A stretch of 27,645 nt of DNA. Origin: a virus. Position 1 is the first letter of the stretch; every line of letters starts with the position of its first letter. Where the stretch lies: the IMG/VR virus record IMGVR_UViG_3300040801_004484, positions 1-27,645 of that record, one strand, 5' to 3'. Shown piece after piece: positions 2,498-22,492 of this stretch. Both the position numbers and the translations under genes were made by a program. The notes below the pieces were generated by a model that ran no database searches, was not told where the DNA came from, and worked only from the letters and a program-made list of their open reading frames with translations.

Positions 2498-4660
2498 ATG
2501 CGTGAGTGGTACAGCGCCGCCGAGCTGGCCGGGCTGCCGGGGCTGCCGGGGACGGCGCGCAGAATCAGCGCCCGCGCTCAGCGCGATCACTGGCAACACC
2601 GCCCGCGCCGCGCCCGTGGTGGCGGCCGCGAGTACCACATCAGCGCACTCCCACGCGAGACCCGCGCGCACCTGGCCGCGCAGGCCGGCGGCTCGATCGA
2701 TGCCGAGACCCTGGAGGCCGTCACCGGCGATCGCGACGCCCGCGCGCGGCGTCGGCGCGCGAAGCAGGATGGACTCCGGCGACTCGCCGCGATGCGCCCG
2801 GATGATCCCCGCAAGCTGCGCGCCCATGCCCGCGAGTGGGTGCTGCGCCGCTGGGCCGACTACGCGCAGGTCTACGGCACCGGCACCGCCGGTTGCGTGC
2901 ACGAGTTCGTCGCCGCCTACTGCGGCGGCGAGATCGAGATCCCCGGCATCCACGCCGCGCACCTGCCGGTGCGCCACGGCGCGCGCTCGCTCGATCGCGC
3001 CACCCTCTACCGATGGCAGCAGGCCTACCGCGACCGCGGCCTGGCCGGACTGCTCGACGGCTACGGCCAGAGCCGCGGGCGCAGCAAGATCGCCGAGACG
3101 CCCGCGCTGCGCGACGTCGTGCTCGCCTGCATCCAGCAGCAGCCTCACATTACACCGAGCAAGATCAAGGACTACCTCGCCGCCGAGCATCCCGACCTCG
3201 ACATCGTCAGCGCCAAGAGCATCGAGCGCTACCTCGCGGGCTGGAAGCGCGAGCACGCACAGCTCTGGACCTACACGACGAACCCGGACCGCTGGAAGAA
3301 CGCCTACCTGCCGGCCTACGGCTCGCATCACGAGCACATCGAGCGTCTCAACCAGCTCTGGGAGATGGACTCCACGCCGGCCGACTGGATGCTGGTCGAC
3401 GGCCGCCACGTCGTCGTCGGCGTGATCGACCTGTACTCGCGCCGCCTGCGCCTGCGTGTCAGCAAGACCTCGCGCGCCGAGGCCGTCGCGCTGACCGCGC
3501 GCGACGCACTGCTCGCCTGGGGCGTGCCCGAGGCCGTGCGCACGGACAACGGCAAGGACTACACCAGCGCGCAGTTCCGTCGCGTGCTCGAGGACCTGGA
3601 GGTCGAGCAGCTCCTCTGCCTGCCGTTCGCCTCCGAGGAGAAGGGCACCATCGAGCGCGCCCTGCAGACCGTCACCCACGGCCTGCTCGATCTGCTGCCC
3701 GGCTTCATCGGCCACTCGGTGGCCGACCGCAAGGTCATCGAGGCGCGTAAGAGCTTCGCCCAGCGCGTCATGGAGCCGGGCGCGGTCGTCGACGTGCAGC
3801 TCACCGCGACCGAGCTGCAGGCCAAGCTCGACGACTGGTGCGAGCACGTCTACGCGCGCGACGCACACGCCGGCCTGTCCGGCCGCAGCCCGTTCGCGGT
3901 CGCCACCGCCTGGACGGGCGAGGTCCACCGCATCGAGGACGAGCGCGCGCTCGACGCGCTGCTCTGCGAGGTGGCGGGCGTGCGCACGGTCACGAAGAAG
4001 GGCATCCGCTACGAGCACCACGACTACGTCGCGCCCGAGCTCGTCGAGCACACCGGGCGCGAGGTGCAGCTGCGCCGCGACGCCGACGACATCGGCCGGC
4101 TCTACGTCTACGACCTGCAGGGCCAATACCTGTGCATGGCGCAGGCGCACGCGCTGCTCGGCATCTCCCGCCAGGAGGTCGCCGCCGTCGCCAAGGCCCA
4201 CGCGCGCGGCTGGCTCGCCGACCAGAAGGCCGAGCTGCGCGCGGCCAAGCAGGCCGTCAAGCGCAACATCGCCGAGGCCGTCCTCGAGCACCGCATCGCC
4301 GAGGCCGAGAAGGTCACCGCACTCCCGTCTCGCGCCACCCCCTACAGCACACCCGCGCTCGAGCAGCACGGCATCGCGGCGCGCGCGAGCGACGCGCCCC
4401 AGGGTGCCGACATCGACACGGGCCGGCATGCCGAGTTCGTCGCGACCTTCGACCCCACGCCGACCCCCATCGAGCAGCACGACCCCCGGCGTATCTACGC
4501 GCGCTGGATGCGCATCGCCCAGCGGATCGAGCGCGGCGCGCCGGTGAGCGAGGCCGACCGCCTCGGCCTGGAGCGCTACCGGCAGACGCCGGAGCACGCC
4601 TCGATGCGCGACTTCTTCACGGACTTCGCCGACCAGATCAGCATCGACGAATTCGGCTAG
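2498..4660 (+). CDS. muA: MuA-type DDE transposase
   Basis: A 720-residue transposase that integrates and replicates the phage by transposition. The N-terminus (WYSAAELAGLPGLPGTARRI, about 4-23) is the Mu-type winged-helix start, followed by helical DNA-binding domains to about residue 280. The catalytic core has D291 (WEMDST), D350 (RTDNGKDY) and E386 (KGTIERAL), so all three DDE residues are present, with 35 residues between the second and third. A Mu-type C-terminal beta domain and a basic C-terminus follow. I chose the ATG at 2498 because the protein then begins with the family's first helix; the frame stays open to 2360 but those residues look non-native. The ATPase partner follows after 69 bp. 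Confidence 0.95.
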   Translation: MREWYSAAELAGLPGLPGTARRISARAQRDHWQHRPRRARGGGREYHISALPRETRAHLAAQAGGSIDAETLEAVTGDRDARARRRRAKQDGLRRLAAMRPDDPRKLRAHAREWVLRRWADYAQVYGTGTAGCVHEFVAAYCGGEIEIPGIHAAHLPVRHGARSLDRATLYRWQQAYRDRGLAGLLDGYGQSRGRSKIAETPALRDVVLACIQQQPHITPSKIKDYLAAEHPDLDIVSAKSIERYLAGWKREHAQLWTYTTNPDRWKNAYLPAYGSHHEHIERLNQLWEMDSTPADWMLVDGRHVVVGVIDLYSRRLRLRVSKTSRAEAVALTARDALLAWGVPEAVRTDNGKDYTSAQFRRVLEDLEVEQLLCLPFASEEKGTIERALQTVTHGLLDLLPGFIGHSVADRKVIEARKSFAQRVMEPGAVVDVQLTATELQAKLDDWCEHVYARDAHAGLSGRSPFAVATAWTGEVHRIEDERALDALLCEVAGVRTVTKKGIRYEHHDYVAPELVEHTGREVQLRRDADDIGRLYVYDLQGQYLCMAQAHALLGISRQEVAAVAKAHARGWLADQKAELRAAKQAVKRNIAEAVLEHRIAEAEKVTALPSRATPYSTPALEQHGIAARASDAPQGADIDTGRHAEFVATFDPTPTPIEQHDPRRIYARWMRIAQRIERGAPVSEADRLGLERYRQTPEHASMRDFFTDFADQISIDEFG

Positions 4661-10154: not shown

Positions 10155-10491
10155 ACGCCCCTCGAGCCCCGGTTTCGTCGGCCTCGGCTACGTGCCGCCG
10201 GGCCCCGCGCGCAGCGCACTGCGCCGGGAGATCGCCTCGCTGGAGACGCGGCTCGGTGAGTCGCGCGCCAAGGCGCGTGCCCAGGCCGATCGCTTGTCCG
10301 AGCAGGCCCGCCGACTCGAGGCCCTGGCCGACATCGAGCGCGAGCTCGCCCTGCTGCACGGCCACCTCGGCTGTCTGCGCGCGGCCGCCGAGATCCTCGC
10401 CGACACGGTGATCGACGCCCGCCCGCTGAGCGCCGTGCGCGGCGCGGACCTGGACCGCCTGCTCGGCATGCTGGGCGTGCTGCGCCGGTGA
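10144..10491 (+). CDS. Coiled-coil early protein
   Basis: A 115-residue protein. After a Gly/Pro-rich start (SSPGFVGLGYVPPGPARS) it is a long coiled coil (residues about 28-75, LRREIASLETRLGESRAKAR, then QADRLSEQARRLEALADIER) with a C-terminal helical tail. No known function. It overlaps both neighbours, so it is co-translated with the Mor-like activator. Confidence 0.62.
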   Translation: MPTKRPSSPGFVGLGYVPPGPARSALRREIASLETRLGESRAKARAQADRLSEQARRLEALADIERELALLHGHLGCLRAAAEILADTVIDARPLSAVRGADLDRLLGMLGVLRR

Positions 10492-10907
10492 GCCGCGCCG
10501 ACGTTCGCCTGCAGGACCTGCCCACCTCGGCCCGCGACCTGGCTGAGACCGTCGGCTTGCAGTCAGCGCTCGCGATCGTCGAGCGATGGGGTGGCGTCGG
10601 CCTGTGGGTTCCGGTGCAGTGGCGGGCCGACGCGCCGCCTACGCAGCGCTTGCTCGCGGCCCTGGGCGAGCGCACGGCCCGGCGGCTCTGGGAGGTGTAT
10701 CGCGGCACGCACCTCGATGTTCCCAAGTGCGACCGCGCGCTGCGCATGCTGCGCGACGACGAGATCCGCGCGCGCAAGCGTCAGGGCGCCACGGTGGCCC
10801 GCCTCGCGCGCGAGCACCATCTGACCGAGCGCCAGATCTACAACATCGCCGCGGCGCCGGCCGTGCAGGACGACGGCCAGGCCGACCTGTTCGAGACCGG
10901 CGCTTGA
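10488..10907 (+). CDS. mor: Mor/C-family middle-late transcription activator
   Basis: A 139-residue protein with a GTG start overlapping the previous stop. The central GGVGLWVPVQW corresponds to the beta-strand dimer interface of Mor, and residues about 95-125 (RQGATVARLAREHHLTERQIYNI) are the C-terminal helix-turn-helix. In Mu, Mor and C bind dyads next to weak promoters and recruit RNA polymerase. This is the only such gene in the window and it ends 53 bp before the first late dyad at 10960. It is therefore the likely activator of both late promoter modules here. Confidence 0.85.
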   Translation: MSRADVRLQDLPTSARDLAETVGLQSALAIVERWGGVGLWVPVQWRADAPPTQRLLAALGERTARRLWEVYRGTHLDVPKCDRALRMLRDDEIRARKRQGATVARLAREHHLTERQIYNIAAAPAVQDDGQADLFETGA

Positions 10908-10958: not shown

Positions 10959-11010
10959 CCTGAACCGCTTCAGCTCTGACCCGCCCGCCGCCGCCTCGAC
11001 ACTGGCGGCA
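10959..11010 (+). promoter_or_regulatory. Late promoter module 1 (Plys-like), probable leaderless start
   Basis: CCTGAACCGCTTCAGCT (10959-10975) holds the perfect dyad CTGAA-CCGC-TTCAG, centred at 10966.5. The endolysin ATG begins at 11010, exactly 43.5 bp downstream. ACACTGGCG-G-CATG precedes and includes that ATG; GACACT (10998-11003) would be a weak -10 at -12 to -7 if the A of ATG is +1. The same 17-mer, spacing and start-proximal sequence recur at 21284-21335. No Shine-Dalgarno is seen before the ATG, so the message may be leaderless. The Mor-family protein just upstream is the likely activator. Confidence 0.72.
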
Positions 11011-11585
11011 TGGCTGATCCCCGCAGCGCCCTCGACCTCGACTGGTCGACCATCGAGTACTTCGCCCCGACCGAGTGGCCCGACCACGAGGGCGCGAGCG
11101 TCCTGGCCCACATGGATGCACGCCTCATCCTCGCCTTGGACGAGCTGCGCGGCAGGGTGGCGCCGGGCCATACCCTCACACCCTCGCCGCTTGCGCGCGC
11201 GCACATCCGCCCCGAGCAGCGCGCGCGCGCGAGCTGCGGGGGTCGTCACTCGCTGAAGGACCGCAACGGCAACCCGCGCCTGGCCGACGCCACCGACCCC
11301 TTCGCCGACTGGCAGACCTGGTGGGACCTCTGGGTCGCCGCCCAGCAATGCGCCTTCGGCGGCATCGGCGTGTATTTCGATGCGCGGCTCGACGGCGCGC
11401 CGCGCCCGATGTTCCATTTCGATCTGCGCCCGCAGCGTGTGCTCTGGGCGCGCATCACCGAGCCCGCCCCCGACGGCCAGGCGCGGCAGCGCTACATCTA
11501 CCCGCATCGCAGCCCGCGCGAGCGCAGCCTGTTCCTGCACGTCCTGGCCGAGCACTCCTGGAGCCCTGCCGATGCGCTGGGCTGA
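11010..11585 (+). CDS. Putative M15-type endolysin
   Basis: A 191-residue protein, first gene of the late region and followed by a holin. H80 (GGRHS), D93/D96 (ADATD) and H136 with D138 (MFHFDLR) resemble the zinc ligands of peptidase M15 (SxHxxGxAxD ... H) used by phage L-Ala-D-Glu/D-Ala-D-Ala endopeptidases, though the first motif is altered. There is no signal peptide, so release would depend on the holin. It starts at the late promoter without a ribosome-binding site and overlaps the holin gene by 14 bp. Family membership is less sure than the lysis role suggested by context. Confidence 0.6.
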   Translation: MADPRSALDLDWSTIEYFAPTEWPDHEGASVLAHMDARLILALDELRGRVAPGHTLTPSPLARAHIRPEQRARASCGGRHSLKDRNGNPRLADATDPFADWQTWWDLWVAAQQCAFGGIGVYFDARLDGAPRPMFHFDLRPQRVLWARITEPAPDGQARQRYIYPHRSPRERSLFLHVLAEHSWSPADALG

Positions 11586-13321: not shown

Positions 13322-14919
13322 GCGACAGACTCCGCGACGACCTGCCCGCCGCCGGCGCCGCCGAAATCCCCGCGGCGCTGCTCCCCTATCAGCAGGCCTG
13401 GGTCGCCGACGACGCCCCGCTCAAGGTCGCCGAGAAATCGAGGCGCATCGGCCTCACGTGGGCGGAGGCCTCGGACGACGTCTTGATCGCCGCGGCCGAC
13501 GCGCAGAGCGACGGGCAGAACGTCTACTACATCGGCTACAACCAGGACATGGCCATCGAGTACGTCGAGGCCTGCGCCATGTGGGCGCGTGCCTTCGACT
13601 ACGCGGCATCCCAGATCGAGGAAGGCCTCTGGGACGACGGCGACGACGACAAACACATCAAGACCTTTACCATCCGCTTTCCCAGCTCCGGCCATCGCGT
13701 CGTCGCGCTCAGCTCGCGCCCGGCCAACCTGCGCGGCAAGCAGGGCGTGGTCGTCATCGACGAGGCGGCCTTCCACGATCAGCTCGACCAGCTCCTCAAG
13801 GCCGCACTCGCGCTGCTGATCTGGGGTGGGCGGGTGCGGGTGCTGTCCACGCACAACGGCGACCAGAACGCCTTCAACGAACTCATCCAGGAGATCCGCG
13901 CCGGCAAGCGCCGCGGCTCCGTTCAGCGCACCACCTTTCGCGAGGCCGTGGCGCAGGGCCTCTACCGGCGGGTGTGCCTGCGCCTCGGTCAGGCCTGGAC
14001 GCAGGCGGGCGAGGACACGTGGGTGCAGGACGTCTATGCCTTCTACGGCGAGGACGCGGCCGAGGAGCTCGACGTCGTCCCGAGCCAGGGCTCGGGGCGC
14101 TACCTCACACGCGCCCTGGTCGAGTCGACGGCGCAGGGCGAGGCGCCGCTGCTGCGCCTGGCCCTGCCCAGCAGCTTCGCTCAGCTCGCGCAGCATCTGC
14201 GCGAGGCCGAGGCACGCGACTGGTGCGAGGCCGAGCTCGCCCCGCTGCTCGCAGGACTCGACCCGAACCTGGCGAGCTACTTCGGCGAGGACTTCGCGCG
14301 CTCGGGCGACGTGACCGTGGTCTGGCCCGCGCAACAGCAGGGCGACCTATCCCTGCGCACGCCCTTTGTGCTGGAACTGCGCAACGTGCCCTACGAGCAG
14401 CAGAAGCAGGTCCTGTTCTACCTGGTCGACCGACTGCCCCGATTCACCGCCGGGGCCTTGGATGCGACCGGCAACGGCGGCTACCTCGCCGAGGTCGCCA
14501 TGCAGCGCTACGGCGCCACGCGCATCGCCGAGATCAAGATCACCGCGGAGTGGTACCGCCAGCACATGCCGCGCTTCAAGGCCGCGTTCGAGGACCGCAC
14601 GCACACCATCCCGAAGCACGCCGACGTCGTCGCGGACATGCTCGCGGTGCGGGTGCGCAAGGGCGTTGCCCAGGTCCCCGACGACGCCCGCACCAAGGGC
14701 ACGGACGGCTTCGAGCGCCACGGCGACTCGGCCATCGCACTGGCCCTGCTGCACTACGCCGTCGCCGAGATGGAGCCCGTGCCGATCGAGTTCCAGTCCA
14801 CCGGCCGACGGCGCGCAGCGCTGGACGCCTACGACGAGACCGGCGCCCACGCCCGACGCCTGCGAGAGGACGTCGGCTTCGGCACGGTCGCTGGCGACAC
14901 CGACTTCGGGGGGCTCTGA
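13318..14919 (+). CDS. Terminase large subunit (Mu gp28-like)
   Basis: A 533-residue packaging motor. The ATPase part has an atypical Walker A (EKSRRIGLTW, 39-48), Walker B with catalytic Glu (VVVIDEA, 144-150) and a coupling motif STHNG (177-181). The nuclease half has acidic clusters of the RNase-H-like fold: GEDFARSGD, LDATGNGGYLAE and HADVVADM. Mu-like terminases cut host DNA beyond the phage ends and package by headful. It directly precedes the portal gene with no gap. Confidence 0.93.
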   Translation: MSDRLRDDLPAAGAAEIPAALLPYQQAWVADDAPLKVAEKSRRIGLTWAEASDDVLIAAADAQSDGQNVYYIGYNQDMAIEYVEACAMWARAFDYAASQIEEGLWDDGDDDKHIKTFTIRFPSSGHRVVALSSRPANLRGKQGVVVIDEAAFHDQLDQLLKAALALLIWGGRVRVLSTHNGDQNAFNELIQEIRAGKRRGSVQRTTFREAVAQGLYRRVCLRLGQAWTQAGEDTWVQDVYAFYGEDAAEELDVVPSQGSGRYLTRALVESTAQGEAPLLRLALPSSFAQLAQHLREAEARDWCEAELAPLLAGLDPNLASYFGEDFARSGDVTVVWPAQQQGDLSLRTPFVLELRNVPYEQQKQVLFYLVDRLPRFTAGALDATGNGGYLAEVAMQRYGATRIAEIKITAEWYRQHMPRFKAAFEDRTHTIPKHADVVADMLAVRVRKGVAQVPDDARTKGTDGFERHGDSAIALALLHYAVAEMEPVPIEFQSTGRRRAALDAYDETGAHARRLREDVGFGTVAGDTDFGGL

Positions 14920-16482: not shown

Positions 16483-16658
16483 GCGCGATGGCCGCGCAAC
16501 CGAAGCAAGGGGAGCGTCGGCGGCGTGCAGCAACACGCCGCCGACATCCCCGGACCGCAGTCAGGGCTGCGGCACGGCAGACCCAAGGCTCCCCGCCACG
16601 TCGACGCGGCCCGGGCAGCCTACGGGTCGGCCACCGCATCGACAATGGGAGAAAACCC
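16483..16658 (+). other. 176-bp gap before the methylase gene, with strong hairpin
   Basis: In a segment where neighbouring genes overlap or nearly touch, this gap is conspicuous. It contains a perfect 12-bp inverted repeat, listed separately. The reading frame of the methylase stays open upstream to 16488, but those residues are Arg-rich and unlike the family, so I treat the stretch as untranslated. Confidence 0.6.
16516..16545. repeat. Perfect 12-bp hairpin upstream of the methylase
   Basis: GTCGGCGGCGTG and CACGCCGCCGAC are perfect inverted arms around the loop CAGCAA. The RNA hairpin would be very stable. No T-tract follows, so an intrinsic terminator is unlikely. An mRNA-processing, attenuation or insertion-boundary role is possible. 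Confidence 0.65.
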
Positions 16659-17417
16659 ATGCGAAGCCCGATCCCCTGGATGGGCGGAAAGGCCCGACTG
16701 GCGCACACCGTGCTGCGCCGCATGCCCGAGCACAAGACCTACGTCGAGGCCTTTGCCGGAGGCGCGGCCGTACTCTTCATGCGCGAGGCACCGGCGCCGG
16801 TCGAGGTGCTCAACGACATCGACTCCGAGCTGGTGAGCTTCTTCCGCGTGGTCAAGCACCACATGGTCGAGTTCTGCAACCAGTTCCGCTGGGCCCTGGT
16901 CAGCCGCCAGCTCTTCCAGTGGTTGGACGAGACGCCGCCCGACACGCTCACCGACATCCAGCGCGCCGCGCGCTTCTACTACCTGCAGAAGCTTTGCTTC
17001 GGCGCCCGGCCGGACAGCCGCAGCTTCGGTGTCGATCCCGGTAGCCGCCCGCGCCTGAACCTCGTGCGCCTTGAGGAGGACATCTCGGCGGCCCACGAGC
17101 GCCTGGCGCGAGTCGTCATCGAGCACCTCGGTTACGCCGAGTGCATCCAGCGCTACGATCGCGAGCAGACGTTTTTCTTCCTGGACCCGCTGTACTGGAA
17201 GCTCGCCGGCTACGGCCACCCCTTCGGCCTGGACGACTACGAACGGCTCGCCGAGCTGATGCGCGGCATGCGCGGTAAGGCCATGCTCACCATCAACGAT
17301 CACCCGGACATCAGGCGCGTTTTCAAAGGCCTTAAACGCGACCGGGTCGCCATCAAGTACACCGTCGGCAAGGTCGCGCCCAAGACCTCGGCCGAGCTGG
17401 TCTACCGGAACTGGTGA
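16659..17417 (+). CDS. D12-class N6-adenine DNA methyltransferase with DPLY motif
   Basis: A 252-residue Dam-like methylase inserted between portal and head-protein genes. It has the N-terminal IPWMGGK (5-11), the SAM-binding motif YVEAFAGGAAVLF (28-40) and NDID, then the catalytic motif at 176-179. That motif reads DPLY instead of the usual DPPY (codons 17184-17195), followed by the normal downstream blocks and a C-terminal TINDHPDIRRVF. The start at 16659 has GGGAGA about 7-9 nt upstream. It likely protects phage DNA from host restriction or alters methylation-sensitive control; whether the variant motif is active is unknown. Confidence 0.9.
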   Translation: MRSPIPWMGGKARLAHTVLRRMPEHKTYVEAFAGGAAVLFMREAPAPVEVLNDIDSELVSFFRVVKHHMVEFCNQFRWALVSRQLFQWLDETPPDTLTDIQRAARFYYLQKLCFGARPDSRSFGVDPGSRPRLNLVRLEEDISAAHERLARVVIEHLGYAECIQRYDREQTFFFLDPLYWKLAGYGHPFGLDDYERLAELMRGMRGKAMLTINDHPDIRRVFKGLKRDRVAIKYTVGKVAPKTSAELVYRNW

Positions 17418-18751: not shown

Positions 18752-19210
18752 ATGGCCGGGGCGCGCATCGAGATCGACGATCGGCAGGTCCTGGCGGCCC
18801 TGCGCCGCCTCGAGGACTTCGCCCGCAACCCCGACCTGGCCCTGCGGGACATCGGCGAGGCCCTGCTCGGCACGCACCGCGCCCGCTTCGAGGATCAGGA
18901 GGCCCCGGACGGCACCCCCTGGGCGGCCCTGGACCCCAAGTACCAGGCCCGCAAGCGCCGCAACGCCGAGCGCATCCTCGTCCTGGAGGGCTGGCTGCGC
19001 GACCAGCTCAGCTACCAGGTCGACGGCCAGCGCCTGGAGCTCGGCACCGCGCGCATCTACGGCGCCACCCACCAATTCGGCCGCGAGGAGGCCGGCATCC
19101 CGGCCCGGCCGTTCCTGGGCCTCTCAGAGGCCGACCAGGCCGAGATCCTCGAGATCCTGCGCGAACACCTCGAGGCGGGCCTGGGCGGGCGCGGCGCGTT
19201 GAGCCCCTGA
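18752..19210 (+). CDS. Virion morphogenesis protein (Mu gpG / Phage_tail_S family)
   Basis: A 152-residue protein of the family that includes Mu gpG and P2 gpS. The conserved blocks are LRDIGEALLGTHRARFEDQEAP, DGTPWAALDPKYQARKRRN and ATHQFGREEAGIPARPFLGL, the last being the family hallmark. It acts in head or head-tail assembly. Only a weak AGAG precedes the start. In Mu, gene I follows directly; here a two-gene accessory cassette intervenes. Confidence 0.88.
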   Translation: MAGARIEIDDRQVLAALRRLEDFARNPDLALRDIGEALLGTHRARFEDQEAPDGTPWAALDPKYQARKRRNAERILVLEGWLRDQLSYQVDGQRLELGTARIYGATHQFGREEAGIPARPFLGLSEADQAEILEILREHLEAGLGGRGALSP

Positions 19211-19416: not shown

Positions 19417-20247
19417 ATGGCCAAGAACTCTAAGATTGAGTGGACGCACCACACCTTCAACCCCTGGTGGGGTTGCACCAAGGTCTCGCCCGGCTGCACG
19501 CATTGCTATGCCCAGGCCTGGGCCAACCGGGTCGGCCTGGAGGTTTGGGGGGCAAAGGCCCCCCGCCGTTTCTTGAGCGACCAGCATTGGCAGGAGCCGC
19601 TGCGCTGGAATCGAGAAGCCGAGCGTTCGCGCGAGAGGCGCCGCGTGTTCTGCGCCTCGATGGCTGACGTCTTCGAGTACCGCCCGGAACTCAGGCCGTT
19701 GCGTGAGCGGCTCTGGGACCTCATTGCGGCAACGCCACACCTTGACTGGCTGTTGTTGACCAAGCGGCCCCACCTGATCGGGAGATTCGTCCCCTGGACG
19801 GACGATTGGCCCGAGAACGTTTGGCTTGGCACGACCGCTGAGAATCAGCGTTGGGCGGCCAAGCGTCTGCCGCTGCTGCTGCGCCACCCTGCGACCGTGC
19901 GCTTCGTATCTTGCGAACCGCTGCTGGGGCCAGTCGATCTTGCGCCGTGGCTGCCGGGCCTGGATTGGGTCATAGCAGGCGGGGAAAGCGGTTCTGGTGC
20001 GCGCCCCATGAATCCTGAGTGGGCCGCTGCATTGCGAGACCAGTGCAACGACGCAGGCGTGGCCTTTCATTTCAAGCAGTGGGGGCACTGGTCGCCCAAC
20101 GTGCCCGCGGACCGCAGGCCGCGACAGGTCATTGAGTTGTCGGGCTCGGACGGGCAGCCCATTCATCTAGCTAGACTATCGAAGAAGGATGCCGGCCGGG
20201 AGCTCGACGGCCGGGTGTGGGATGAGTTTCCTCGCCGCTACGCATGA
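19417..20247 (+). CDS. Three-Cys-motif protein (DUF5131, phage Gp37/Gp68 family)
   Basis: A 276-residue protein with the family's N-terminal KIEWTHHTFNPWWGC and the cysteine cluster C20-X6-C27-X2-C30 (followed by YA). This cluster resembles an iron-sulfur or metal site of radical-SAM-like proteins. Further family blocks are VFCASMADVFE, LDWLLLTKRP, VWLGTTAENQ, FVSCEPLLGPVDL, DWVIAGGESGSGARPM and a C-terminal FHFKQWG. Biochemical function is not established. GGGAG precedes the start. It pairs with the TcmP gene that follows, a partnership known widely. The base composition is clearly lower in GC than the phage core, so it was probably acquired separately. Confidence 0.88.
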   Translation: MAKNSKIEWTHHTFNPWWGCTKVSPGCTHCYAQAWANRVGLEVWGAKAPRRFLSDQHWQEPLRWNREAERSRERRRVFCASMADVFEYRPELRPLRERLWDLIAATPHLDWLLLTKRPHLIGRFVPWTDDWPENVWLGTTAENQRWAAKRLPLLLRHPATVRFVSCEPLLGPVDLAPWLPGLDWVIAGGESGSGARPMNPEWAAALRDQCNDAGVAFHFKQWGHWSPNVPADRRPRQVIELSGSDGQPIHLARLSKKDAGRELDGRVWDEFPRRYA

Positions 20248-20271
20248 GGGCACTGTCAGGGAGGAAGGGTC

Positions 20272-21147
20272 TTGCAGGAGCCTACAGTAGGCGCTTGGGC
20301 ACGGCACAAACTGGATTTTCTGAGCAGGTACCTCTCCGCATACACGAAGATCCTGAGCAAGCAGCCCTGGGCGGACGGGTTCGTCTATATCGACGCGTTC
20401 GCGGGTCCGGGGAGGGCGCGGGTACGCGCCAAGCCGGACGCGCTTCCCGGGGGTGTCGATCTATTGGCTCCTGTTCTGGACGAAGACGACGCCGAATACC
20501 TCAAAGGGTCGCCCAGAGTTGCCCTCGACATTGATCCACCCTTCAGTCATTACGTCTTTATAGACCTCAACTCAGAACGGATTGCGTTGCTAGAGGCGGT
20601 GGCGGCGGAGTTCGGCGCTGCGCGCACAGTCGCCATCAGGCAGTGCGACTGCAACGCCTATCTCCTCGAGCTGCTCCCGCGCATCAAATGGGATACGTGG
20701 CGCGGGGTCGTATTCCTGGACCCGTTCGGGATGCACGTGCCTTGGTCGACCATTCAGGCGTTGGCCGAGACGCGGGCCCTTGAGGTCTTCGTCAACTTCC
20801 CACTCGGCATGGCCATTCAACGGCTGTTGCCGCGTGACGGCCAACTGCAACCGCAACGGCGTCGCAAGCTCGATGAGTACTTCGGAGGGCCGGAGTGGTT
20901 CGATGTCATGTACCAAGAACGACAGGTAGACCTGTTCGGAGAGGAACAACGCCAAAAGATGCCGGGCGAACACCTGGCCAAGTGGTATCGCGATAGGCTG
21001 CAGGCCGCCTTCGGTTATGCCTCCAAGGCGCGCCTGGTGCGCAACTCCCGGGGAGGACATCTCTACTATCTCATCCACGCGGGTCCCAACAAGACCGGCG
21101 CAAAGATCGCGAATGAACTGTTGTCCAAGTGGGAGGGTGTAGGCTGA
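20272..21147 (+). CDS. tcmP: Three-Cys-motif partner protein TcmP
   Basis: A 291-residue protein. The N-terminal VGAWARHKLDFLSRYLSAYT, then YIDAFAGPG (39-47) and VFLDPFGMHVPW (147-158), are the TcmP family hallmarks. The DAFAGPG and LDPFG blocks look like the SAM-binding and catalytic motifs of class I methyltransferases, so it may modify a nucleic acid or protein. The TTG start at 20272 is supported by GGGAGGAAGG about 5-12 nt upstream and by the family's start; no ATG is available. It lies 24 bp after the three-Cys-motif gene. One 60-bp stretch (20521-20580) is 29/60 GC, against about 70% in the phage core. Confidence 0.88.
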   Translation: MQEPTVGAWARHKLDFLSRYLSAYTKILSKQPWADGFVYIDAFAGPGRARVRAKPDALPGGVDLLAPVLDEDDAEYLKGSPRVALDIDPPFSHYVFIDLNSERIALLEAVAAEFGAARTVAIRQCDCNAYLLELLPRIKWDTWRGVVFLDPFGMHVPWSTIQALAETRALEVFVNFPLGMAIQRLLPRDGQLQPQRRRKLDEYFGGPEWFDVMYQERQVDLFGEEQRQKMPGEHLAKWYRDRLQAAFGYASKARLVRNSRGGHLYYLIHAGPNKTGAKIANELLSKWEGVG

Positions 21148-21283: not shown

Positions 21284-21335
21284 CCTGAACCGCTTCAGCT
21301 ACGCCACCGCGTAGCCCCTCGCCACACTGGCGCCA
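21284..21335 (+). promoter_or_regulatory. Late promoter module 2 (PI-like), probable leaderless start
   Basis: CCTGAACCGCTTCAGCT (21284-21300) is identical to the 17-mer at 10959-10975. The dyad centre, 21291.5, is 43.5 bp before the A of the ATG at 21335, the same distance as in module 1. ACACTGGCG-C-CATG (21324-21337) also matches, with CACACT (21323-21328) as a weak -10 at -12 to -7 if the A is +1. The 34-bp spacer between is otherwise unlike the first copy. The location before protease gene I corresponds to the PI promoter of Mu. Confidence 0.72.
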
Positions 21336-22492
21336 TGTACGGAACACCCGACATGGCGCGCGCCGCGCTCCAGCCGATCGAGATCTTCCGCCCTGGGCGG
21401 CATACCGACATGAGCGGCGAGGCGCTGGAATTCTCCGAGGCCGACCTACACGCCTCGGCCGCCGCCTACGACCCGGCGCTGCACGAGGCCCCGCTGACCG
21501 TCGGGCACCCGCGCCACAACCTGCCGGCCTACGGCTGGGTGCGCGCGCTGGCCGTGCCCGAGACCGACTCCTCCCTGCAGGCGACGCCGCACCAGGTCGA
21601 CCCTGCCTTCGCCGAGATGGTCCGCGCGGGCCGCTTCAAGAAGATCTCGGCCTCCTTCTACCGCCCGCACGCGCCGGGCAACCCCAAGCCCGGCGTGTAC
21701 TACCTGCGCCATGTCGGCTTCCTCGGCGCGCAACCGCCGGCCGTCAAGGGCCTGCGCGACGCCGAGTTCGCCGACGACGAGGCCGGCGTGGTGACGCTGG
21801 AGTTCGGCGAGGACGCGCGCTGGGGCTTTGAGTCCATCGCCCGGGTGTTGCGCGGCCTGCGCGAATGGCTCATCGAGCGCGACGGCACCGAGACCGCCGA
21901 CCGCGTCGTGCCGGACTACCTCATCCGCGACACCCAGGCCGTCGCCGAGGACGAGCGCGAAGCCGGCGCTGCGGCCTACTCAGAACCCACACAGGAGACC
22001 CCCGCGATGCCAGAGCAGCAGCCCGTCGACCTTGCCGAGCGCGAGGCGGAACTGAACAGCCGCGAGCAGGCCATCAAGGACCGCGAAGACCAGGCCCGGG
22101 CCGGCGAGGCCGCACGCCGTCACGCCGAGGCCGCAGCCTTCGCCGAGCGCCTGGTCGAGGCGGGCAAGGTCCTGCCCAAGGATCGCGACGCCCTGGTCGC
22201 CTTCATGGACGGGCTGGACGCCGAGGCGGCGATCGAGTTCGGCGAGGGCGATGAGCGCCGCCGGCATGGCGCCGGCGAATGGCTGCAGGAGTTCCTCGAG
22301 GCGCTGCCGCCGCGCGTGGACTTCGGCGAGCACACGCCGGGCGAGACGCAGGATGAGCAGACCGCGGACTTCGCGGCGCCGCCCGGCTACGCCGTGGACG
22401 CGCAGCAGCTCGAGCTGCATCGCAAGGCGCTCGCCTACCAACGCGAGCATGACACCGACTACGTGACCGCAGCGCGCGCCGTCGCGCCGTAG
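21335..22492 (+). CDS. Head maturation protease (Mu gpI-like)
   Basis: A 385-residue protein. The protease part (about 1-150) has the family blocks IEIFRPGRHTDMSGEALEFS, YDPALHEAPLTVGHPRHNLP, then AYGWVRAL, ARPA-type FKKISASFYRP and YYLRHVGFLGAQPPAVKGL; the H of VGHP and the S of ISASFY are likely catalytic. The C-terminal half is a charged scaffold-like region that is also made alone from an internal start. The ATG at 21335 lies at the promoter without a ribosome site; an in-frame ATG at 21353 is a possible alternative. Confidence 0.9.
   Translation: MYGTPDMARAALQPIEIFRPGRHTDMSGEALEFSEADLHASAAAYDPALHEAPLTVGHPRHNLPAYGWVRALAVPETDSSLQATPHQVDPAFAEMVRAGRFKKISASFYRPHAPGNPKPGVYYLRHVGFLGAQPPAVKGLRDAEFADDEAGVVTLEFGEDARWGFESIARVLRGLREWLIERDGTETADRVVPDYLIRDTQAVAEDEREAGAAAYSEPTQETPAMPEQQPVDLAEREAELNSREQAIKDREDQARAGEAARRHAEAAAFAERLVEAGKVLPKDRDALVAFMDGLDAEAAIEFGEGDERRRHGAGEWLQEFLEALPPRVDFGEHTPGETQDEQTADFAAPPGYAVDAQQLELHRKALAYQREHDTDYVTAARAVAP
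22007..22492 (+). CDS. Nested in-frame scaffold protein (Mu gpZ-like)
   Basis: An ATG at 22007, in frame with the protease gene, is preceded by a strong AGGAG 8 nt upstream, which is unexpected inside a gene unless used. It would yield the last 161 residues: a coiled coil (LAEREAELNSREQAIKDRED), an acidic middle and a C-terminal helix. In Mu, the scaffold gpZ is likewise the C-terminal part of gpI from an internal start. The free scaffold would organise the capsid protein before cleavage. Confidence 0.72.
   Translation: MPEQQPVDLAEREAELNSREQAIKDREDQARAGEAARRHAEAAAFAERLVEAGKVLPKDRDALVAFMDGLDAEAAIEFGEGDERRRHGAGEWLQEFLEALPPRVDFGEHTPGETQDEQTADFAAPPGYAVDAQQLELHRKALAYQREHDTDYVTAARAVAP

Follow-up and report, generated by a model that had tools for sequence, protein, structure and literature searches.

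Late genes and candidate promoters of the contig

The window, meaning the whole stretch of DNA analysed here, is an entire IMG/VR contig of 27,645 bp from a Mu-like phage. Its Mu-like gene set comprises a Mor-family activator, Gp27, Mu portal, head protease, scaffold and major head protein. The Mor-family late transcription activator is encoded from a GTG start at 10488..10907 (plus strand) and matches PF08765 (E = 7e-12) and PHROG 836, 'late transcriptional activator' (E = 4e-31); a search for a second Mor/C homologue in the contig returned this gene as its sole match. Downstream lies the lysis gene (11010..11585, plus strand), which has no match in Pfam or PHROG. Its product shares 34-37% identity with Vibrio phage 'hedgehog/DD-peptidase' proteins, which supports the label of an M15-type DD-peptidase-like endolysin and makes 'endolysin', the name used in an earlier note written from the letters alone, a reasonable one. 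The same note had called the gene at 21335..22492 (plus strand) protease gene I, in agreement with its match to PHROG 976 (E = 3e-121), and this head maturation protease is proposed to be the gene that opens the head operon, without a leader. Mu-type late promoter positions are present before lys and before I, and the contig stops short of the tail promoter position. Between the end of the upstream gene and the ATG there are about 100-190 bp. In the interval from mor to lys no terminator was recognised, and early transcripts may therefore extend into lys.

Other features of these genomes are recorded here as observations in their own right. Positions 19417-21147, between a G-like tail completion gene (18752-19210) and I, probably hold a moron pair, made up of a PHROG 2045 protein and the three-Cys-motif partner TcmP (TIGR04474, 5e-62; PADLOC candidate PDC-M41A, 9e-73). 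AcrF3 of phage MP22 occupies the same slot. The head region includes a Dam-family adenine methyltransferase-like gene (16488-17417; E 8e-26, under the NCBIfam cut-off). In contig L009 (1-393), a Mor/C homologue stands immediately 5' of protease I, not before the lysis gene.

The candidate activator site of the lysis promoter is a 17-mer, CCTGAACCGCTTCAGCT (10959..10975, plus strand), which recurs with 0 mismatches before gene I (21284..21300, plus strand). Both copies contain the perfect dyad CTGAA-CCGC-TTCAG (10960-10973 and 21285-21298), with arms at 10960-10964 and 10969-10973 in the lysis copy. The dyad centres, 10966.5 and 21291.5, lie exactly 43.5 bp 5' of the A of the ATG at 11010 and 21335, respectively. 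The perfect dyad, its identical second copy, the equal distance to both start codons and a shared ACACTGGCG-N-CATG had all been described in the earlier note, and each is borne out. Its statement that the 34-bp spacer differs was loosely worded: 23 bp are dissimilar, as claimed, but the last 11 bp are shared.

If the A of the ATG is taken as +1, the -10-like hexamers at -12..-7, aligned with those of 52 promoters, read GACACT for lys (10998..11003, plus strand) and CACACT for I (21323..21328, plus strand). Both retain -11A and -7T and are otherwise poor, matching the weak -10 that had been anticipated. Likewise, neither ATG is preceded by a Shine-Dalgarno (SD) sequence (anti-SD energy -1.5 kcal/mol at each); a GGAG-type SD precedes many other genes of the contig.

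A pair of short repeats could in principle be a chance occurrence or the duplicate of a short segment left by recombination, and the presence of only two copies in the 27.6-kb contig fits this; no third copy of the 17-mer was found there with up to 3 mismatches. The expected number of chance matches is 0.09, and at least two copies arose in 1 of 100 shuffles. The flanks of the two copies differ, and dozens of phages show the same arrangement with different sequences, so that the comparative scans below refute this explanation and leave it a practically negligible probability.

Conservation of the dyad-to-ATG spacing

Among 47 contigs with a related protease, many carry a perfect dyad whose sequence differs, for instance GCGGAA/TTCCGC, GCTGAC/GTCAGC or TCCGAA/TTCGGA. 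It lies 44.5-46.5 bp 5' of the start of the protease gene, and an nAnnnT-type -10 follows, a few bases short of the ATG. When each phage was scanned for exact-arm copies of its own dyad, the copies fell before the same late genes. Phage B23 and G016 have them 44.5 bp before both lys and I, and G007 at 44.5 (lys) and 45.5 (I). In G011 they lie 44.5 bp before lys and I and 48.5 bp before a tail gene, while I and the tail gene are both at 45.5 in G006 and both at 44.5 in G005. The first genes after these putative promoters encode a holin, an amidase, a VanY or GH108 endolysin, the protease, and DNA_circ_N or GP46; by gene content, the sites correspond to Plys and PI of Mu, with a tail promoter in addition. 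Two exact dyads are orphans with no ATG at the usual spacing (position 4139 of G007, contig L078, and position 13792 of G005, contig L103). They may be promoters for non-coding RNA or leadered genes, or decoys.

Since a spectrum of distances for all 6-bp-arm dyads, regardless of sequence, gave only a modest peak at 44.5-45.5 (17 and 12 vs about 7), pattern scans were needed. The first covered 2.9 million viral contigs with GAA-N4-TTC-N{13-43}-A-N3-T-GGCGGC-ATG, in which a spacer of any length from 13 to 43 bases separates the dyad core from ANNNTGGCGGCATG, giving 31 possible spacings. Among the 81 matches listed, 44 lie at 42.5-45.5, including 19 at 43.5 and 18 at 44.5, and every spacing other than 43.5 and 44.5 has 0-5. 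The recognised late genes among the matches listed (20 head proteases, 6 genes after mor and 5 GP46 genes, the latter assigned in two cases by Pfam and in three by eye similarity) are all at 42.5-45.5, and the 37 matches at other spacings include no such gene. The ATG of the pattern is in frame every time, as each gene is translated in the frame of that ATG.

An independent second scan, with GCGGAA-N4-TTCCGC arms and GGCGGC not fixed, returned 12 proteases, 2 genes after mor and 4 tail genes, all at 44.5-45.5, with no late gene among 32 matches at other spacings. The four tail proteins, beginning MAWS..., are assigned to DNA_circ_N through the identity of L104 with L349, and the remainder by eye. 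For the matches listed in these two scans together, recognisable late genes therefore occur only at 42.5-45.5, with 0 in 69 matches elsewhere. A third scan, with CTGAA arms and two spacings only, added 20 proteases and 11 genes after mor. The second and third scans required T at -8 and thereby sample the 44.5-45.5 class rather than the 43.5 class, which leaves the spacing test unaffected.

Approaches that used no promoter pattern or other sequence sets gave further examples. Protease relatives collected with the B23 protein have spacings of 44.5 (nine) and 45.5 (one), as read by a script that favoured 42-47 where several dyads were present. A scan of genome contigs gave 61 matches, mostly due to chance; three of these (L251, L252 and L282, all 44.5) are Mu-like by protease or mor, and two (L274 at 44.5 and L245 at 43.5) are GP46-like by eye. 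Viral contigs queried with the Mor protein gave no match, and conservation along the Mor alignment was nowhere sufficient to support a scan. Relatives occur in Pseudomonas and Stutzerimonas genomes and among marine phages, and phage MP22 has the -10/ATG half of the module. A -10 with GGCGGC-ATG and no clear dyad is also seen in Bhz63 and phiSHP3 (L053/L058; protease start 19176 / 19300), whose Mor proteins are shorter and divergent.

Sequence comparison thus establishes a fixed geometry of dyad, -10 and ATG that is repeated at two to three late promoters. The earlier note had staked its reading on homologous phages keeping the spacing and had suggested a search of relatives; diverse relatives with other dyads do keep 43.5-46.5 bp, and they do so before lysis, protease and tail genes. 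The note had overlooked the tail-gene promoters, the recognition-helix covariation, the leaders in Mu and in alphaproteobacterial Mu-like phages, and a second palindrome around the -10.

The Mor recognition helix and the dyad arm

The dyad arm covaries with a residue of the Mor helix-turn-helix, the one that follows LTERQI. This residue is Y, W or H in 12 of 13 proteins from phages with the arm xTGA (the other has K), R or K in 7/7 with xGGA, and E in one phage with xCGA; related phages are included in these counts, which are therefore not independent. The covariation links the dyad to each phage's own Mor protein. We infer that the Mor-family protein binds the dyad and activates sigma-70 polymerase.

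Start site and leaders

Promoters of the proposed leaderless type lack an SD motif. None was found in 56 non-redundant promoters, and one in the 52 of the first set, compared with 40 of 45 annotated genes of phage B23 taken as a control. In the alignment of the 52 promoters, +1 is A and -1 is C in 51, a pyrimidine-purine start, though C was fixed by the search pattern in part of this set.

Leaders are present in alphaproteobacterial Mu-like phages, and apparently at Mu lys and I too. In the leadered relatives RcapMu, RR1-B, YPCBV-1, G019 and G014, the dyad is present with the ATG about 60-85 bp away, and all 6 annotated first genes of RcapMu, RR1-B and YPCBV-1 have an SD. Of their 11 promoters, 9 have an nAnnnT hexamer at 32.5-34.5 bp from the dyad centre, the same range as in the leaderless set. 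The dyad is therefore tied to where transcription starts rather than to the start codon, as the leadered relatives keep the dyad-to-minus-10 distance though the ATG has moved.

These observations bear on the possibility that the late messages are not leaderless at all, but start upstream. The dyad would then have another use, as a repressor site or a processing hairpin, and lys and I would be translated by coupling to upstream genes. Late operons are long, so read-through must occur, as this account expects. Coupling is nevertheless unlikely in the window, given the 100-190 bp that separate the end of the upstream gene from the ATG. An upstream start also sits poorly with the fixed ATG spacing in unrelated contigs, where no late gene was found at other spacings among the matches listed, with the conserved -11A/-7T and -1C/+1A, and with leadered relatives that keep the dyad-to-minus-10 spacing and have an SD. 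We consider it improbable. A start at, or up to 3 nt from, the A of the ATG is the reading to which the aligned promoters point.

In log phase, proteobacterial ribosomes generally translate leaderless mRNAs poorly, a consideration that weighs against efficient translation of a head protease in this way. A literature search for leaderless late promoters in Mu-like phages found no paper. A comparison of P. aeruginosa Mu-like phages used generic promoter predictors (PMC4378225).

Two further observations concern repeats in leadered phages. A different group (L005, L008, L039, L309, L313, L314, L316 and L319) has a repeat of the type TTTAAA-N5-TTTAAA close to where the protease gene begins, in many cases accompanied by a clear SD; the repeat is possibly another class of activator site. 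In Rhizobium phage RR1-B (L055), a CCGGAA..TTCCGG element occurs four times, at 11533, 18997, 26074 and 31111. The copies precede lys, I, the tape measure gene and a baseplate gene, forming an unannotated late regulon.

A second palindrome around the -10

In most leaderless promoters, inverted arms flank the -10 and the right arm ends at or beside the ATG. The lysis promoter of the window has GCCGCC-TCGACACT-GGCGGC (10990..11009, plus strand), a predicted fold that flanks the -10, adjoins the ATG and corresponds to a covarying element in relatives. At gene I, CGCCA-CAC-TGGCG surrounds the -10 (21320..21332, plus strand). Other examples are GGTTGGCA-CAA-TGCCAACC in L346, GCTGCCAG-AAA-CTGGCAGC in L432, CATGACCCGCA-CAC-TGCGGGTCATG in L438 and GCCCAT-CACA-ATGGGC in G016. 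Across the 56 non-redundant promoters, the mean arm is 4.66, vs 3.38 +/- 0.14 after left flanks were swapped between promoters (z 8.9; 0/3000); the same statistic anchored 17 nt upstream is 2.9. Some relatives have only a short stem or none. In the window itself, the lysis hairpin is not more stable than its shuffles (z -0.36), and the fold predicted at I has a z of -2.5, although its minimum-energy form pairs the arms differently from the short palindrome.

Two other accounts of this region were rejected. One took ATGGCGGCATGA for an upstream open reading frame of three codons, but this frame requires an A at -8. The other saw in GGCGGC no more than a discriminator, which is at odds with the many promoters that replace it yet keep the palindrome.

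A dyad over the -10 occupies the usual position of an operator, and the palindrome could accordingly bind a dimeric repressor and keep the late promoters off until the lytic switch. The six-base right-end sequences are of 43 different kinds among the 56 promoters, the centres range from -9 to -15 and the loops from 3 to 12, and even the two promoters of the window differ in their arms. There is no fixed spacing or shared half-site, unlike at the activator dyad. This diversity of hexamers and centres identifies the second palindrome as a structure rather than an operator sequence, and we give the repressor site very little credence.

Whether the structure acts as RNA or as DNA is a closer question. 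In the RNA that reads through from upstream, positions -6 to -1 have a predicted probability of being unpaired of 0.23, vs 0.44 at ordinary starts (p = 6e-7), while in RNA beginning at the ATG the AUG is predicted to be 0.74 unpaired. The left arms all lie 5' of the proposed +1. Alternatively, the activator-dependent promoter would be the same but the palindrome would act on DNA and aid strand opening, with no RNA role: a cruciform or single-strand hairpin would present the -10 in its loop, like the N4 hairpin promoters. The -10 is indeed in the loop nearly always, arms that covary without sequence conservation fit DNA as well as RNA, and Mu C is reported to unwind promoter DNA (PMC4461284). 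Loop length, on the other hand, varies from 3 to 12, and single mismatches in the coding-strand stem are of the G-U type in 7 cases and the A-C type in 1, which favours RNA, a bias that rests on these 8 events. Because the fold energies of the coding and template strands show no strand preference, the RNA reading depends on mismatch type and accessibility. A DNA role is the less favoured of the two, a minority possibility that keeps some weight; we prefer a hairpin that would act in the read-through RNA.

Relation to known systems

Among the closest parallels is Mu Pm, where Mor takes the place of a -35: its dimer binds a 16-bp element centred at -43.5 that contains two 5-bp inverted repeats (PMC4390567). 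The statement in the earlier note that Mor binds near this position was correct. The promoters described here resemble Pm in their Mor-family activator, in 5-bp inverted repeats at -43.5 from the proposed +1 replacing the -35, and in a weak or recognisable -10 (PMC4390567). They differ in their half-sites (CTGAA, GCGGAA or GCTGAC), in a spacer of 4 where that of Mu is 6, and in their targets, as they serve lysis, protease and tail genes with the start codon at the proposed +1 while Mor of Mu serves the middle operon.

The C-activated promoters Plys, PI and PP of Mu (PMC4461284) share the same downstream genes (lysis, I and tail), and a sequence is likewise common to the lys and I promoters. 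Mu C belongs to the same family as Mor, and PDB entries 9l0x / 9vw8, 'Late transcription activator C', were matched by profile. In contrast to the arrangement proposed here, the Mu lys and I starts apparently lie downstream of a leader, and Mu has separate Mor and C where the contig has the single Mor-family gene found. With a phage-encoded Mor-family activator and an inverted repeat with arms of about 5 bp near -43.5 of the inferred start site, the promoters of the window would belong to the known Mor/C-activated kind.

The proposed role of the hairpin recalls phage T4, in which the long early RNA of gene e, soc, 49 and I-TevI hides the start and the RNA from the late promoter is made without the 5' arm (PMC3014915, PMC2988022). 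Lysis and other late genes are involved in both phages, and a long RNA that folds over the start is predicted here from sequence. As in T4 gene e, a conserved stem lies beside the start with its 5' arm upstream of the late start (z 8.9). T4 differs in using a late sigma factor and in freeing an RNA that keeps its SD; in the present promoters, the -10 is in the hairpin loop and apparently nothing of the leader would remain.

A third comparison is with Deinococcus, in which TANNNT a few bases before an open reading frame has been found experimentally to yield leaderless mRNA (PMC12340547). TAnnnT at a fixed short distance from the ATG and the lack of a ribosome binding site are common to both (PMC12340547). 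The Deinococcus promoters, however, are activator-independent and serve cellular genes, in a phylum with widespread leaderless expression.

A model for late gene expression and its implications

Taken together, it is quite probable that 10959-11012 is the Plys of this Mu-like phage, with PI as its sister, an activator-dependent and leaderless promoter that also encodes a start-codon hairpin in read-through RNA. The Mor-family activator (gene 10488-10907), made from the early operon, would bind CTGAA-N4-TTCAG at -43.5 instead of a -35 element, and the bound protein would recruit or open host sigma-70 RNA polymerase at the weak nAnnnT -10. Transcription would begin at the A of the ATG or no more than 1-3 nt away from it, and the lysis and protease messages, being leaderless, would need no SD. 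In RNA reading through from upstream, the palindrome would fold against the start codon and block translation. Early lysis protein should therefore not be made, as the hairpin adjoins the AUG in early read-through RNA and there is no SD. The promoter's own RNA would be without the left arm and its start would be open.

A wider proposition, on which we are evenly divided, is that in this clade of Mu-like phages promoter and translation control are fused in one 50-bp module, so that late genes are translated only, and leaderlessly, from their own promoter's RNA. Within the module, the dyad would fix the start at the A of the AUG, while the 20 bp with the -10 would encode the silencing hairpin.

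If this is true, the key late messages of a large group of temperate proteobacterial phages are leaderless, although translation of such messages is considered rare and weak in their hosts. These natural leaderless messages could then be used to ask whether ribosomes change late in infection. The simple sequence rule of a dyad, 44 bp and an ATG would help to find late operons and correct start codons in Mu-like phages, and the arm preferences would amount to a DNA-recognition code for Mor proteins. The promoters would also provide a second case, unrelated to T4, of a phage concealing its lysis gene from early read-through RNA.
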